Shown one piece after another: positions 41,731-48,968 of a stretch of 64,000 nucleotides of DNA (its first letter is position 1; each line of letters begins with the position of its first letter). The notes under the pieces are model-generated. The model saw only the letters and a list, made by a program, of their open reading frames with translations. It searched no databases and was not told where the DNA came from. Source of the DNA: Kiloniellales bacterium. GTDB lineage: Bacteria > Pseudomonadota > Alphaproteobacteria > Kiloniellales > JAKSBE01. Where the stretch lies: contig JASJBF010000028.1 in assembly GCA_030066685.1 (NCBI GenBank), positions 1 to 64,000 of the forward strand, read 5' to 3'. The translations under genes and the position numbers were made by a program.

Positions 41731-42672
41731 ATGGCGGATCACTTCACCGAGGTCGACTGGCCCGACGCGCACCTCGAGCGCAGGCGGGCCATCCTGAAGC
41801 GCCATCCCGCCGTCAAGGCGCTGATGGGCGCCAACCCCGCGACGGCGGGCTTCGTGTTCCTACTGGTCGGGCTGCAGATCGCGATCGCCGCCGGCCTGGG
41901 TATCCTCGACGCGCACTGGCTGCTGGTGGTCGCCCTGGCCTATGTCGTCGGCGCCTTTCCCAACCACGCGCTCTACGTCCTGATCCACGAGTGCACGCAC
42001 AACCTGGTGTTCAAGCGGCATTGGCCCAACCAGGTCCTGGGCATCGTCTGCGACTTCGCCCTGGTGGTCCCGGGCGCCATGGCCTTCCGCAAGTATCATC
42101 TGCTGCACCACAAGCACATGGGCATCGAGGACCTGGACGCCGACCTGCCGACCCGCGGCGAGGCCCGACTGGTCGGCAAGGGGCGGGTCAAAAAGGCGCT
42201 CTGGATGCTCTTCTTCTCGCTGTCCCAGGCCCTGCGGCCGATGAAGATCGTCGGCATCAGCCTCTGGGACCGCTGGGTCCTGGCCAACGCCGCCGCGGTC
42301 ATCGCAGTCGACGTCCTGGTCCTGGTCTTCCTCGGCCCCAAGGCCCTGGTCTACCTGCTGCTCTCGACCTTCTTCGGGCTCGGCCTGCACCCCCTGGGCG
42401 GCCGCTGGATCCAGGAGCACTTCGTCACCGAGGCCGGGCAGGAGACCTACTCCTACTACGGCCCGCTCAACCGCCTCGCCTTCAACGTCGGCTACCACAA
42501 CGAGCACCACGACTTCGCCAACGTGCCCTGGAACAACCTGCCCAGGCTCAAGGCCGCCGCGCCGGAGTTCTATGACTCCCTGGCCTCCTACCGCTCCTGG
42601 ACCGGCGTCGTGGCGCGCTTCATCCTCGACCCGGCGCTTTCGACCTACAGCCGCATCGTCCGCGCCGGCTGA
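41731..42672 (+). CDS. Sphingolipid delta-4 desaturase (DES)-like fatty acid desaturase
   Basis: 313-residue membrane desaturase. The N terminus has the Lipid_DES pattern of eukaryotic dihydroceramide desaturases (WPDAHLERRRAILKRHPAVK). Three histidine boxes are present: H86-ECTH-90, H123-LLHH-127 and H256-NEHH-260. The stretch GLGLHPLGGRWIQEH, then ETYSYYGPLN and FNVGYHNEHHDF, is nearly the same as in human DEGS1 as I recall it. Four or more membrane segments are visible. The predicted reaction is O2-dependent introduction of a double bond, perhaps into a sphingoid or ceramide-like lipid, but no sphingolipid synthesis genes are in the window. ATG at 41731 has a GAGGG site. Confidence 0.92.
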   Translation: MADHFTEVDWPDAHLERRRAILKRHPAVKALMGANPATAGFVFLLVGLQIAIAAGLGILDAHWLLVVALAYVVGAFPNHALYVLIHECTHNLVFKRHWPNQVLGIVCDFALVVPGAMAFRKYHLLHHKHMGIEDLDADLPTRGEARLVGKGRVKKALWMLFFSLSQALRPMKIVGISLWDRWVLANAAAVIAVDVLVLVFLGPKALVYLLLSTFFGLGLHPLGGRWIQEHFVTEAGQETYSYYGPLNRLAFNVGYHNEHHDFANVPWNNLPRLKAAAPEFYDSLASYRSWTGVVARFILDPALSTYSRIVRAG

Positions 42673-42757
42673 ATGCCCGGCCGTGCCCGATTGATTCCCG
42701 GGCGGAGTCCCGCCTAGCCTTCCTGCGACGGTCTCCAAGTCGGTCAGGGAGGTGACG

Positions 42758-43762
42758 ATGTCCGAGGATCGCGATCTGCTCGCCCAGAAGGTCATGGTGG
42801 AGGGGCTCTACTGGTGGGGGGTGCCGACCCTCTTCCGCTGCCCTCATGTCGAGGACCCGGCGGCCTGCGACATCGCCCTGGTTGGCGTGCCGCACAGCAC
42901 CGGCAACGGCACCACGGAGCGCGACCAGCACCTGGGGCCGCGGGCGGTGCGCGACGTCTCGGCCCTGGGCCGGCGGGTCCACATGAAGTACCGGCTGGAC
43001 CCCTGGGCGGCCTGCCGGATCCACGACCTGGGCGACGTGCCCCTGCCCGAGGGCAACGACAACGAGAAGTCGGTCGAACGCATGGTCGAGTTCTACCGGC
43101 GGATCGACGCCGCCGGCGCGCGGCCGGTCTCCATCGGCGGCGACCATTCGATCACCGGCGGCATCCTGCAGGCCATCGCTGGCCCGGGCGCCAGGCTGAC
43201 CGGGGGCGAGAAGGCGGTGCTGCTGCACTTCGACGCCCACACCGACGCCTATCACAACCTCGACCACTTCCTCGGCGCGGTGAAGTCGGCGGCGCACTGG
43301 GCCAGCTACCTGGTGCGCGACGGCCACGTCGACGCCACCCGCAGCGTCCAGATCGGCATCCGCGGCAACGTCCGCACCCTCGACTGGCTCGAGCCCAGCC
43401 ACGAGCTGGGCTACGAGGTCATCACCATGGAGCGCTACCGCGCGCTGGGCCCAGCGCGCTGCAAGGAGATCATCGACCAACGGATCGGCGACGCCCCGCT
43501 CTACGTCACCTTCGACCTCGACTGCCTGGACCCGACGGTCGCCCCCGGCGTCGCCAACCTGGAGGCCGGGGTCGAGGGCTTCCGGATCGACGAGGTCATG
43601 GAGCTGCTGCAGTCGGTGCGCGGCAAGAACGTGATCGGCGGCGACGTGGCCTGCCTGATGCCGACCAAGGACCATCCGAACAAGATCACGGCGCACGTCG
43701 CGACCGCGGTGCTCTTCGAGATCGTCAGCCTGATCGCCGACCGCTTCCGGGCCGGGGCGTGA
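42758..43762 (+). CDS. Agmatinase/arginase-family ureohydrolase
   Basis: 334-residue binuclear manganese ureohydrolase. Metal-binding motifs are intact: SIGGDHSITGG, HFDAHTDAYHN and VTFDLDCLDPTVAPGVANLE. Length and the VGVPHSTGNG entry fit agmatinase-type enzymes (agmatine to putrescine plus urea), but arginase, guanidinobutyrase, formiminoglutamase or guanidine-hydrolysing relatives share these motifs, and the loop around DAYHNLDHFLGA does not match the common agmatinase sequence I recall. GGGAGG precedes ATG 42758; a GTG six bases upstream is an alternative. It starts 85 bases after the desaturase gene on the same strand. Confidence 0.9.
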   Translation: MSEDRDLLAQKVMVEGLYWWGVPTLFRCPHVEDPAACDIALVGVPHSTGNGTTERDQHLGPRAVRDVSALGRRVHMKYRLDPWAACRIHDLGDVPLPEGNDNEKSVERMVEFYRRIDAAGARPVSIGGDHSITGGILQAIAGPGARLTGGEKAVLLHFDAHTDAYHNLDHFLGAVKSAAHWASYLVRDGHVDATRSVQIGIRGNVRTLDWLEPSHELGYEVITMERYRALGPARCKEIIDQRIGDAPLYVTFDLDCLDPTVAPGVANLEAGVEGFRIDEVMELLQSVRGKNVIGGDVACLMPTKDHPNKITAHVATAVLFEIVSLIADRFRAGA

Positions 43763-45586: not shown

Positions 45587-45865
45587 GCCTGCCTCCGCCG
45601 GCAGCATCGCGGCGAGGCAGAGGCTGTAGCACGGTGGCCGCAGCGGCGAAAGGCCGGCCGCCCACCGGCGACGGGCGGAGCGCCCCTCAGCCAAAAGGCG
45701 CCCTACCTGGGCGCGAGTCTTCAACGGCTTGGGAACGTGGGGCGAAAAAAAATGCCCCACGGCTCTGTCTACGCCCGCCGCAAGCTCGGCGATCAGCCGG
45801 CGACCTTGCCGAGGCCGCCGCCGTCGCCGAGAATGGGCGCTTTCCGCGGGGGGGCGGAAGCGCGG

Positions 45866-46909
45866 ATGCCGGGCCTGAACCGGGCGCGCCTGAGGCGCGT
45901 TCCACGGATCCTGCGGTCGCCGCGGCTGCAGGCCTTCGTCCTGCGGGCCCTGGCGTCCGATCTGCTGGCCCTGGCCCTGCCCCCCAGGAAACGCGGTGCG
46001 CTGCGCTACCGCTGGCGCTACGGCAACGACCGCAGGCTGGTGGAGATCAACCACCTGCTGCGCACGGGCGCGCCGGTCAACCTCGAGGCGCCGCGGACCT
46101 ACTGCGACAAGATGAGCCACCTCAAGCTCTTCCACGACAACCCCCTGATGGCCTTCTGCACCGACAAGGTCTCCGTGCGCCGCTACGTCGCCTGGAAGGG
46201 CCTGGCCGAGACCCTCGTGCCGCTCCTCGCCGCCTACGAGCGGGCGGCGGACTTCCGGGCCGACGACCTGCCGGCGCGCTTCGTGGCCAAGGCGAGCCAC
46301 GGGTCGGGCTGGGTCCTCTTCTGCCGCGACCGGCAGAGCTTCGATGTGGCGGCGGCCCGGCGCCGCTTCGCCCGCTGGCTGGCCGAGGACTATTCCCTGC
46401 GCCGGGGCGAGACCAACTACCGCGGCATCCCGCCGCGGATCGTCGTGGAGCCCTTGATCGAGCACCTGGAGTCCTTCATCGAATACAAGTTCTTCTGCTT
46501 CCACGGGGCGCCGAAGTTCGTCTCGGTCATCTCCTCGCGGATCAGGGGCGAACCGGTGCGCGGGATCTACGAGATGGACTGGCGCAAGGCGGACTACGGT
46601 TCCGAGGGCCTGAAGCTGGATCCGGCGACCCTGCCGGCGCCGCCGGAGTTCGCCCGGCTGAAGGCCATGGCGGAAAAGCTCGCGGAGGACTTCCTCCACG
46701 TCCGCGTCGACTTCATCGTCGCCGACGGCGATATCTACTTCTCCGAGCTGACCTTCTACAACCTCGGCGGCTTCGTGCCGCTGGTCCCCGAGGCCATGAA
46801 CGAGGTGGTCGGCGGCTACATGGACCTCGCCCGGGCGCCGGTCTATGCGGCGCGCGGCCGCGACGTCCTGAAGGCGCTGGCGGCCGCCGGCGCCGGCCCC
46901 ACCGGATAG
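45866..46909 (+). CDS. TupA-like ATP-grasp protein
   Basis: 347 residues of the TupA-like ATP-grasp family, often found in capsule, teichuronopeptide or polysaccharide gene sets. Family blocks: the entry APRTYCDKMSHLKLFHDNPL, then CTDKVSVRRYVAWKGL, FVAKASHGSGWVLFCRD (ATP-binding strand), IEYKFFCFHGAPKFVSV and the metal-binding end DFLHVRVDFIVADGD with IYFSELTFYNLGGFVPL. The start is ambiguous: ATG 45866 (GGCGGAAG ahead) was used, 45833 is possible. The N-terminal 25 residues are Arg-rich. Such enzymes may ligate an amino acid to a sugar acid; the substrate is unknown. No polysaccharide genes are next to it. Confidence 0.85.
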   Translation: MPGLNRARLRRVPRILRSPRLQAFVLRALASDLLALALPPRKRGALRYRWRYGNDRRLVEINHLLRTGAPVNLEAPRTYCDKMSHLKLFHDNPLMAFCTDKVSVRRYVAWKGLAETLVPLLAAYERAADFRADDLPARFVAKASHGSGWVLFCRDRQSFDVAAARRRFARWLAEDYSLRRGETNYRGIPPRIVVEPLIEHLESFIEYKFFCFHGAPKFVSVISSRIRGEPVRGIYEMDWRKADYGSEGLKLDPATLPAPPEFARLKAMAEKLAEDFLHVRVDFIVADGDIYFSELTFYNLGGFVPLVPEAMNEVVGGYMDLARAPVYAARGRDVLKALAAAGAGPTG

Positions 46910-47069
46910 GGCGGACGACCCGCGGGCAGGGTGGCATTCGCCACTGCGGGGCGCCGCCGCCTTCGGGTAGCCTGGAAGGGCTTCATTTCCGGAAGAGGAG
47001 GTCGTCTCGCCTCGTAGGCCCGCGAAACCCCGGTGCGGCGGCGTGCGCAGGCGACCCGAAGGTGGCGTC

Positions 47070-48968
47070 ATGACGAACAGGCTTGGACTCACCGCCGCGG
47101 TCTTCGCGCTGACCAGCTGTCTCGGCGTCGAGGCGCTGTCGGCGGACCAGGGCGCGCTCGTCGAGACGACGACCCGGGGGACGGTCGGCGTCCTGCTCGA
47201 CGAGATTCCCCTGCCGATGCGCGACCGCGTGGCGAAGAGGATCGCGGCCAAGCCGCCGGCGTTCTGGGCGCAACGGGCGGCGGCGCAGCTGCGGCTGACG
47301 TCCTACCGGCTCGTCTACCGGGAGTTCTACCACGACGAGGGCCAGAAACAGCTCCCCTTGCCGCCCGAGCAGGTCTGGCAGATCGTGCCGCTCGGCGCGC
47401 CGCAACGGGACAAGGACTACGGCGGCCATGACGTGGTCAAGGTCGACTACGCCTTCAGCAGCACGCTGCTGACCGACGTCGATTCGCCGGGCGTCTCGGA
47501 GAAACGGCTGCAGGAAGTCGGCGGGTCCCACGTGGAGCCCTTCATCCTCCCGCTCGATCCCGAGATGCTGCTCCAGCGGACCGGCGTCGCCTGCATGGAC
47601 GAGGACAGCTTCCCCTTCAACAGCCTGGACAGCGAAGAGGTCGATTCCTTCTACGACCGCGACTGCGAGGTCGAGGACGAGCTCGGCAACGAGGGGCAGT
47701 GCCACTACACGCGACAGGCCACCCAATCCTGCGTGAAGGCGATCGAGGCGCAGGTCGGGCGGGTCGACCTCGAGATGACCTACCGGCGGCTGGCCTGGGA
47801 CAAGGCCCATGCCGACAGGGTGCGCGTGGGGCCGGTGACCGGCGAGCAGCCGGACCTCAAGGTCTACCAGCCCGACTTCCGCCCGAGCCGGATCACCTAC
47901 CGCTACATCCACGCCGACGGCTGCGAGGTCGACGAGCAGTGTGTCGGCGGCACCGGCTGGCGGCGCCTCCTGCAGTTCGCGACCTCCGACGAGAACGTCG
48001 GCGAGAAGCCGCTTTCGATCGGCAGCGTCGACTACTTCGTCAGCGGCGAGGGTGCGGAACTCGACGAGCACAACCTCTTCGAGCACAGCGCCTGCCACAA
48101 CCACTTCCACTTCCAGTACTACGGGACCTTCCGCTGGGAGGGCGACCAGAGCTTCACGAGGAAGCACGGCTTCTGCCTGCAGAGCACGGCGCGGGTCGCC
48201 AACCGCGAGACCAGTCCGCTGCACAACGACTTCGCGGGCTGCGACCGGCAGGGCGTCGCCGCCGGCTGGGTCGACCAGTACAAGGCCGGCCTCCCCTGCC
48301 AGTGGCTCGACATCACGGATCTGGCGCCGGGACCCGGCCTGCGCGGCTTCCAGTCCAATCCCCAAGGCTATCTCTGCGAGGGCACCTTCGTGGACGCGAA
48401 GGGGCAGCCGATCTCGGACGGCGAACCCGTGGTCTGGGCGGACACCGGACGGACCGCCGCGAACGGCGAGGCCGTGGAGGCCCCGCTCTGCGCGCTCGCC
48501 CCGGACTGGAACGCCAACAACACCTTCGAGGTGGAGGAGACCATACCGCCGCACGGCCAGGGCCTGATCACCACTGACTGTTCCCGCGGCCAGATCGGCG
48601 GGCTCCGGAACTGCGGCTTCCGTCTGGAGCAGGCACGCAATACCTGCGAGCCGGGGGCTTCGGTCACCTTGTTCTGCAGCGTCGCCCCCCAGGCCGAGCC
48701 GCAGGTGGTGCGCGTCTGCGAGTACAGCCACGCCCTGGGCACGGCCATACCCTGCCGCTACGAGGACACCTGGGTCCCGCTCTCGCCGGGCGTCAGCGAC
48801 CAGCCCTATACGCTCGCGACCGCCGTGGTCACGAGCGCGCCGACCGAGGTCAGCTTCACCTGCCCCGCCGCGCGCAGGGCCGGGACCGAAGAGCCGGGCG
48901 GCGCCTATTCGCTCTATGCCGGTGCCGTGTTCCCGGACGACGGCCACCAGGGTGTCACCTGCCAATAG
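47070..48968 (+). CDS. Secreted lysyl-oxidase-like copper amine oxidase
   Basis: 632 residues. A signal peptide (about 1-25, ending ALSA) is followed by a beta-rich N region with an acidic, Cys-containing loop (about 175-225). Residues about 260-420 are a lysyl oxidase domain: copper ligands H343, H345 and H347 in ACHNHFHF, and the lysine tyrosylquinone pair K365 (KHGFCL) and Y404 (DQYKAGLPCQWLDITD), with the same spacing as in human LOX (KASFC and DTYGADIDCQW). About 200 residues with many cysteines follow. It should oxidise primary amines to aldehydes outside the cytoplasm; natural substrate unknown. AAGGTGG lies before the ATG. Confidence 0.88.
   Translation: MTNRLGLTAAVFALTSCLGVEALSADQGALVETTTRGTVGVLLDEIPLPMRDRVAKRIAAKPPAFWAQRAAAQLRLTSYRLVYREFYHDEGQKQLPLPPEQVWQIVPLGAPQRDKDYGGHDVVKVDYAFSSTLLTDVDSPGVSEKRLQEVGGSHVEPFILPLDPEMLLQRTGVACMDEDSFPFNSLDSEEVDSFYDRDCEVEDELGNEGQCHYTRQATQSCVKAIEAQVGRVDLEMTYRRLAWDKAHADRVRVGPVTGEQPDLKVYQPDFRPSRITYRYIHADGCEVDEQCVGGTGWRRLLQFATSDENVGEKPLSIGSVDYFVSGEGAELDEHNLFEHSACHNHFHFQYYGTFRWEGDQSFTRKHGFCLQSTARVANRETSPLHNDFAGCDRQGVAAGWVDQYKAGLPCQWLDITDLAPGPGLRGFQSNPQGYLCEGTFVDAKGQPISDGEPVVWADTGRTAANGEAVEAPLCALAPDWNANNTFEVEETIPPHGQGLITTDCSRGQIGGLRNCGFRLEQARNTCEPGASVTLFCSVAPQAEPQVVRVCEYSHALGTAIPCRYEDTWVPLSPGVSDQPYTLATAVVTSAPTEVSFTCPAARRAGTEEPGGAYSLYAGAVFPDDGHQGVTCQ

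Follow-up and report, generated by a model that had tools for sequence, protein, structure and literature searches.

The closest described relatives of the protein analyzed here are the eukaryotic sphingolipid delta-4 desaturases of the DES/DEGS1 type, which carry the domains PF08557 and PF00487, three histidine boxes and a C-terminal block, all of them in common with the bacterial protein. DES enzymes require O2, and the same family holds DEGS2, a C4-hydroxylase/delta-4 desaturase that represents a possible alternative chemistry. The protein described here, termed DES throughout, differs from the eukaryotic enzymes in that it belongs to a bacterial host and would act downstream of a bacterial ceramide pathway. 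The bacterial pathway used for comparison was that of Caulobacter, comprising aasR, cerR, acpR, spt and cerS; the accessible part of that account (PMC11324152) names no DES, and the sole desaturase named in it is CC_0202. According to the accessible part of PMC11087976, the bacterial ceramide pathway is said to have Spt alone in common with eukaryotes. Among the papers listed by a literature search over titles and abstract openings, with most subscription journals outside its scope, none named a bacterial delta-4 sphingolipid desaturase, and no such bacterial enzyme was named in the accessible parts of papers on bacterial sphingolipids, among them PMC11324152, PMC11334938, PMC10331486 and PMC11087976.

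The window, a 64,000-nucleotide stretch of a Kiloniellales genome, contains an ORF that runs from ATG to TGA over 313 codons and translates into a 313-aa membrane desaturase containing GLGLHP, ETYSYYGPLN and FNVGYHNEHHDF. Coordinates of the gene and its features are provided in the table below. In a Pfam scan of the DES protein, PF08557 (Lipid_DES) scored 33 bits (cut-off 23) and PF00487 (FA_desaturase) 109.7 bits (cut-off 29.7); NCBIfam gave no match above cut-off. When the whole genome was searched, PF08557 reached 36.6 bits and occurred once, and it was found in none of 14 control genomes. Both domains were matched by 24/24 relatives scanned, and each of the eight box histidines was present in 97% or more of the 85 bacterial DES collected and invariant in a 24-sequence subset. 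The first-pass annotation had reported a Lipid_DES-type N terminus and three histidine boxes, and Pfam and conservation bear out both. Given that the DES family is known and that its bacterial members match the Pfam model, the protein is regarded as a member of a known family in an unusual setting. The GC content of the gene (0.676) and its GC3 (0.952) are similar to those of neighboring genes, so nothing in its composition points to a recently acquired gene. A chance or shadow ORF was ruled out by the two Pfam domains and the conserved histidines.

Table. Positions of the DES gene, its motifs and one adjacent gene in the window
Feature	Coordinates	Strand	Evidence
DES gene	41731..42672	+	Open frame, Pfam domains above cut-off, predicted structure
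Lipid_DES N-terminal motif, residues 12-36	41764..41838	+	PF08557
Histidine box 1, HECTH (H86, H90)	41986..42000	+	Translation, conservation in 85 DES
Histidine box 2, HLLHH (H123, H126, H127)	42097..42111	+	Translation, conservation
Histidine box 3, HNEHH (H256, H259, H260)	42496..42510	+	Translation, conservation, DEGS1 alignment
Arginase/agmatinase-family gene	42752..43762	+	PF00491, 198.4 bits; not judged part of the function

The human DEGS1 sequence used for alignment and tree is an unchecked working copy and may contain errors. DES aligned to this copy over 301 aa with 39% identity and a score of 226 bits, and the third histidine box fell within the DEGS1-like block; with 13 further desaturases, all taken from genomes of the same order, the DEGS1 copy gave 38 bits at best. 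The likeness to DEGS1 is treated as a lead, supported by the independent Pfam test. Homology to the eukaryotic sphingolipid delta-4 desaturase, as the first-pass annotation had proposed, agrees with domains, motifs and the DEGS1 alignment; its description of the protein as nearly the same as human DEGS1 holds for the C-terminal block but not for the whole protein, at 39% identity.

The predicted DES structure had a mean pLDDT of 89.6. Structural comparison placed two chains from chloroplast FtsHi complexes on top (Z 17.3 and 15.9), followed by AlkB alkane monooxygenase (Z 13.6 and 13.5), after which the next chain dropped to Z 3.6. DES is likely to have an AlkB-type fold in this model; the fold is shared with 8f6t and 8sbb_A over 245 and 252 residues, but AlkB differs from DES in sequence (15% and 18% identity) and in substrate. 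Searches of solved structures by sequence returned none at E ≤ 0.001 for the DES protein or at E ≤ 1 for a 24-row profile. A viral source was rejected, as two scans of viral contigs found no relative. The five best BFVD matches were 11-14% identical; four bear the name desaturase, and the fifth is a cytochrome b5-domain protein.

In the window, DES is neighbored by SDR, CBS, GST, arginase and EamA genes. The last four were seen again by eye in a congener (L034), where the arginase-like gene is located approximately 4.6 kb from DES. Within the window's genus, DES lies outside the sphingolipid cluster. Two further genes of the window were recorded on the plus strand: one for a TupA-like ATP-grasp protein (45737-46909; PF14305, 98.7 bits) and one whose 641-aa product has a lysyl oxidase domain (47043-48968; PF01186, 40.2 bits), a family best known in animals. 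Among 58 genomes including the window's own, strong DES homologues were found in the three genomes that belong to the genus and, outside its family, in G031. The G031 relative is 62% identical and starts 39 bp behind spt, inside a ceramide cluster; acyl-AMP ligase, cerR-like and DAGK genes surround it.

The window's own genome (G000) carries DES on contig 28 and a ceramide-type cluster on contig 30 (L032), in the order fatty acyl-AMP ligase, epimerase-family reductase, ACP-domain ORF and spt. The SPT scored 625.9 bits with NF047599 (curated cut-off 500), and its nearest solved chains were bacterial SPTs (top PDB match 2jg2, E 5.1e-129). The adjoining ACP ORF (L032:8940-9194), the acpR candidate, matched PP-binding PF00550 at 34.9 bits (cut-off 20.8), and the ligase, the aasR candidate, matched subfamily NF006624 at 768.7 bits (cut-off 600). 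The cerR candidate is the epimerase-family protein between ligase and ACP, for which an NCBIfam scan gave nothing above cut-off, and the cerS candidate is a weak GNAT protein (Acetyltransf_1, 21.7 bits, cut-off 20.7); both putative identities are based on family and place. A DAGK_cat protein, two LptF/LptG proteins and an FA_hydroxylase are also encoded near spt. The families thus match those of the partly accessible Caulobacter account (PMC11324152), with the genes from ligase to spt in a single run in G000, and Caulobacter has a ceramide kinase (PMC10331486, accessible part). The first-pass annotation had suggested a search for spt and ceramide synthase genes, and an above-cut-off SPT was found in a ceramide-type cluster, with cerS assigned by family and place. 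The genome does therefore hold sphingolipid genes, whose absence had been named beforehand as counting against the proposal. Upstream of the sphingolipid cluster, on the minus strand (L032:73-3631), four adjacent proteins of 267-323 aa contain NVNQ..GNMNNQ-like repeat units and have a surface or fiber look by eye.

DES relatives were collected by a scan of named genomes, and the best 80 of at least 575 were kept. By record title, these 80 loci belong to groups of Pseudomonadota, Bacteriovoracaceae, Myxococcaceae, Saprospiraceae and other Bacteroidota, as well as to Ignavibacteria, Gemmatimonadota, Acidobacteria and others. Named strains in which DES was found include Chitinophaga filiformis (L070), Hyalangium versicolor (L076) and Archangium lansinium (L092). 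The idea of an isolated bacterial curiosity was abandoned, DES being one member of this large bacterial family. When the loci were searched with the cluster proteins, eight of the best 80, several of which are short, showed an spt-type gene near DES (spt-linked: L041, L045, L048, L050, L052, L053, L057 and L084). Bacteroidota-type loci among the 80 were mostly without linkage to ceramide genes, and outside Pseudomonadota no such linkage was found at most DES loci.

The 80 loci were joined by L028, L119, L120 and L121, and every ORF of these 84 loci was clustered without preselection of families; rows 2, 7 and 8 were left out as overlapping or antisense frames. The five top neighbor families after DES were ceramide-cluster genes. 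Commonest were spt-type (11/84), GNAT (9/84, homologues of the cerS candidate) and epimerase (8/84) genes, then a DAGK-type kinase (7/84) and the nucleotidyltransferase-like protein of the cluster (6/84), which make up rows 6 and 9. The first non-ceramide family (row 10) occurred at six loci, all of them from Saprospiraceae or close to it. When mapped onto the DES tree, the presence of an spt-type gene close to DES, recorded in 11 of 65 rows (including two with an AONS below every SPT cut-off), implied at least seven changes, among which gains and losses are not separable. The proposed sphingolipid role of DES is supported by these relatives within ceramide-type clusters, with delta-4 activity as the putative chemistry.

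Compact runs of AONS, acyltransferase, DES and FA_hydroxylase genes were observed in G243 (L120:6708-10884) and G247 (L121:7206-12338), the latter locus also containing an SDR. The AONS of both scored below every SPT cut-off, and the acyltransferase clustered with cerS-like GNAT proteins; the operon is possibly a second sphingolipid-like pathway. Separately, the DES-positive Minwuiaceae genome of L043 (G458) contains two adjoining above-cut-off SPT genes (contig 37, 12838-15522).

Co-occurrence of DES and SPT was determined at the genome level. In a sample of 398 genomes from the window's phylum, DES was found in 4 (E ≤ 1e-40) and an above-cut-off SPT in 36. SPT was present in 2 of the 4 DES carriers (p 0.04), and in 1 of 3 (p 0.24) when the window's own genome, a DES carrier by choice, was removed, so that the phylum sample alone decides nothing. 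Fifty of the best 80 loci (L038-L087) entered the genome-level SPT searches of named carriers, and carriers from the phylum sample and named carriers, grouped by record title, gave 18 DES-positive Pseudomonadota. SPT was above cut-off in 14/18 of these versus 34/394 DES-negative genomes (p 3e-11), or in 13/17 carriers without the own genome (p 2e-10), although these and all other co-occurrence p values here are too small because related genomes are non-independent and named carriers were chosen by likeness to DES. The four exceptions are G002 (81% complete), the genome of L051 (with a partial SPT, 454 bits), G243 and G247.

A second sample consisted of 296 genomes from the phylum of Chitinophaga, with DES in 30 and an above-cut-off SPT in 11. 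Here SPT was found in 7/30 DES-positive versus 4/266 DES-negative genomes (p 1.4e-5), and in 6/29 carriers (p 9e-5) after removal of the center genome G485, likewise a DES carrier by choice; the other 23 of the 30 carriers had no above-cut-off SPT. NF047600 at E ≤ 1e-60 was left unused as an SPT test since it matched in 53/54 genomes and in 8/14 controls. At E ≤ 1e-135 it gave a weak difference (27/30 DES-positive versus 194/266 DES-negative, p 0.046), and the DES carriers G646, G650 and G748 had no match at this threshold.

The DES gene product is probably a dihydroceramide (sphinganine-base) delta-4 desaturase that acts in a bacterial ceramide pathway, an assignment made with moderate confidence from domains, motifs and gene company. 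The Spt/CerS/CerR route would supply dihydroceramide as the substrate. The eight histidines would hold a di-iron center for O2 activation, a separate donor would supply the electrons, and the sphingoid base would lose hydrogens at C4-C5. The resulting 4,5-unsaturated ceramide would probably be destined for outer-membrane sphingolipids. Active sites of the DEGS1 type face the cytosol. CerR of Caulobacter is reported to be periplasmic (PMC11087976, accessible part), and the two locations together make substrate access a problem for the delta-4 reading; a different order of steps here, flipping of the lipid back, or action of DES on the keto form would each be an option. The unlinked DES of the window's genus, the small number of spt-linked loci and the SPT-less carriers also count against delta-4 desaturation in ceramide synthesis.

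Under the main rival reading, DES would hydroxylate C4, alone or besides desaturating, and give rise to phytosphingosine-type ceramide like mammalian DEGS2. DEGS2 performs both reactions (accessible part of PMC10140171), and the domain and motif tests used do not tell a hydroxylase from a desaturase. Nothing specific to hydroxylation was found, however, and several clusters hold a separate FA_hydroxylase, even if that enzyme possibly acts on the acyl chain; hydroxylation is considered unlikely. Modification of the amide-linked acyl chain of sphingolipids is suggested by CC_0202, a DesA-family protein of ceramide-making Caulobacter reported in that role (PMC11324152, accessible part). Against this, Caulobacter vibrioides was among the control genomes without PF08557, which makes it unlikely that CC_0202, judged by the domain search of that genome, belongs to the DES family; DES is also distant from other desaturases on the tree, and an acyl-chain role is given a very low probability.

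DES might instead act off sphingolipids altogether, on phospholipid acyl chains or on a different aminolipid, for example a capnoid or the product of the G243/G247 AONS operon. Such a role would fit with the lack of a ceramide-type gene near most of the best 80 DES loci, with an AONS in G243 and G247 that falls short of SPT scores, and with the DES-positive genomes that lack SPT. Nevertheless, ceramide-cluster genes give the strongest neighbor signal, the link recurs across the tree and SPT is present in the window's own genome, so that a non-sphingolipid substrate seems quite improbable. Delta-4 desaturation of dihydroceramide remains the preferred function.

In order to place DES among desaturases, a tree was built from the DEGS1 copy, 65 DES of bacteria and nine outgroup desaturases out of 13 that were usable. 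Of the 85 DES sequences collected, 20 were left out, namely L010 (partial) and 19 Bacteroidota/Ignavibacteria-type loci judged redundant. From the 12 best matches to the DEGS1 copy, the tree omits L063, L068, L072 and L112 and keeps L085, L102, L113 and L079. All DES including the DEGS1 copy formed one clade versus the nine outgroup desaturases (branch 3.39, 100/100), in a tree whose long branches meet at the root (tool warning) and whose single eukaryotic sequence is this unchecked copy. DEGS1 sat on a long branch among the bacterial DES, its placement unstarred, and again had no settled position when the outgroup and L116 were removed. An arrangement with DEGS1 outside the sampled bacterial DES, as sister of the whole set, was mildly rejected (p-AU 0.02, with long branches meeting). 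Grouping of the window DES with the main Pseudomonadota clade had a p-AU of 0.387.

The first-pass annotation had allowed for either a transfer or an ancestor, and a transfer of DES from bacteria to eukaryotes would be allowed by this tree. Delta-4 unsaturated ceramide could then be an old bacterial trait, with DES having arisen and spread in bacterial ceramide pathways and eukaryotes having received the enzyme from bacteria, a scenario that we find possible but doubtful. If it were true, the double bond that marks animal sphingolipids would be a bacterial invention, added to a pathway in which the remaining later enzymes differ.

A possible environmental counterpart is found in the deep Black Sea, where ceramide structures with one double-bond equivalent in the base made up 46% (median); the word desaturase is absent from the main text of that study (PMC11334938). 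Since deep Black Sea waters are euxinic and DES needs O2, the match to these ceramides is not direct. DES relatives beside ceramide-making genes in several bacterial groups suggest that the ceramide delta-4 step may not be a eukaryotic speciality. If active as proposed, DES would be a second enzyme common to the bacterial and eukaryotic pathways, besides Spt, and a gene for unsaturated bacterial ceramides. With a bacterial DES family, the question of where the double bond of sphingosine came from can be put to the test, and if the enzyme is active, some bacterial ceramide may resemble host ceramide more than has been assumed.
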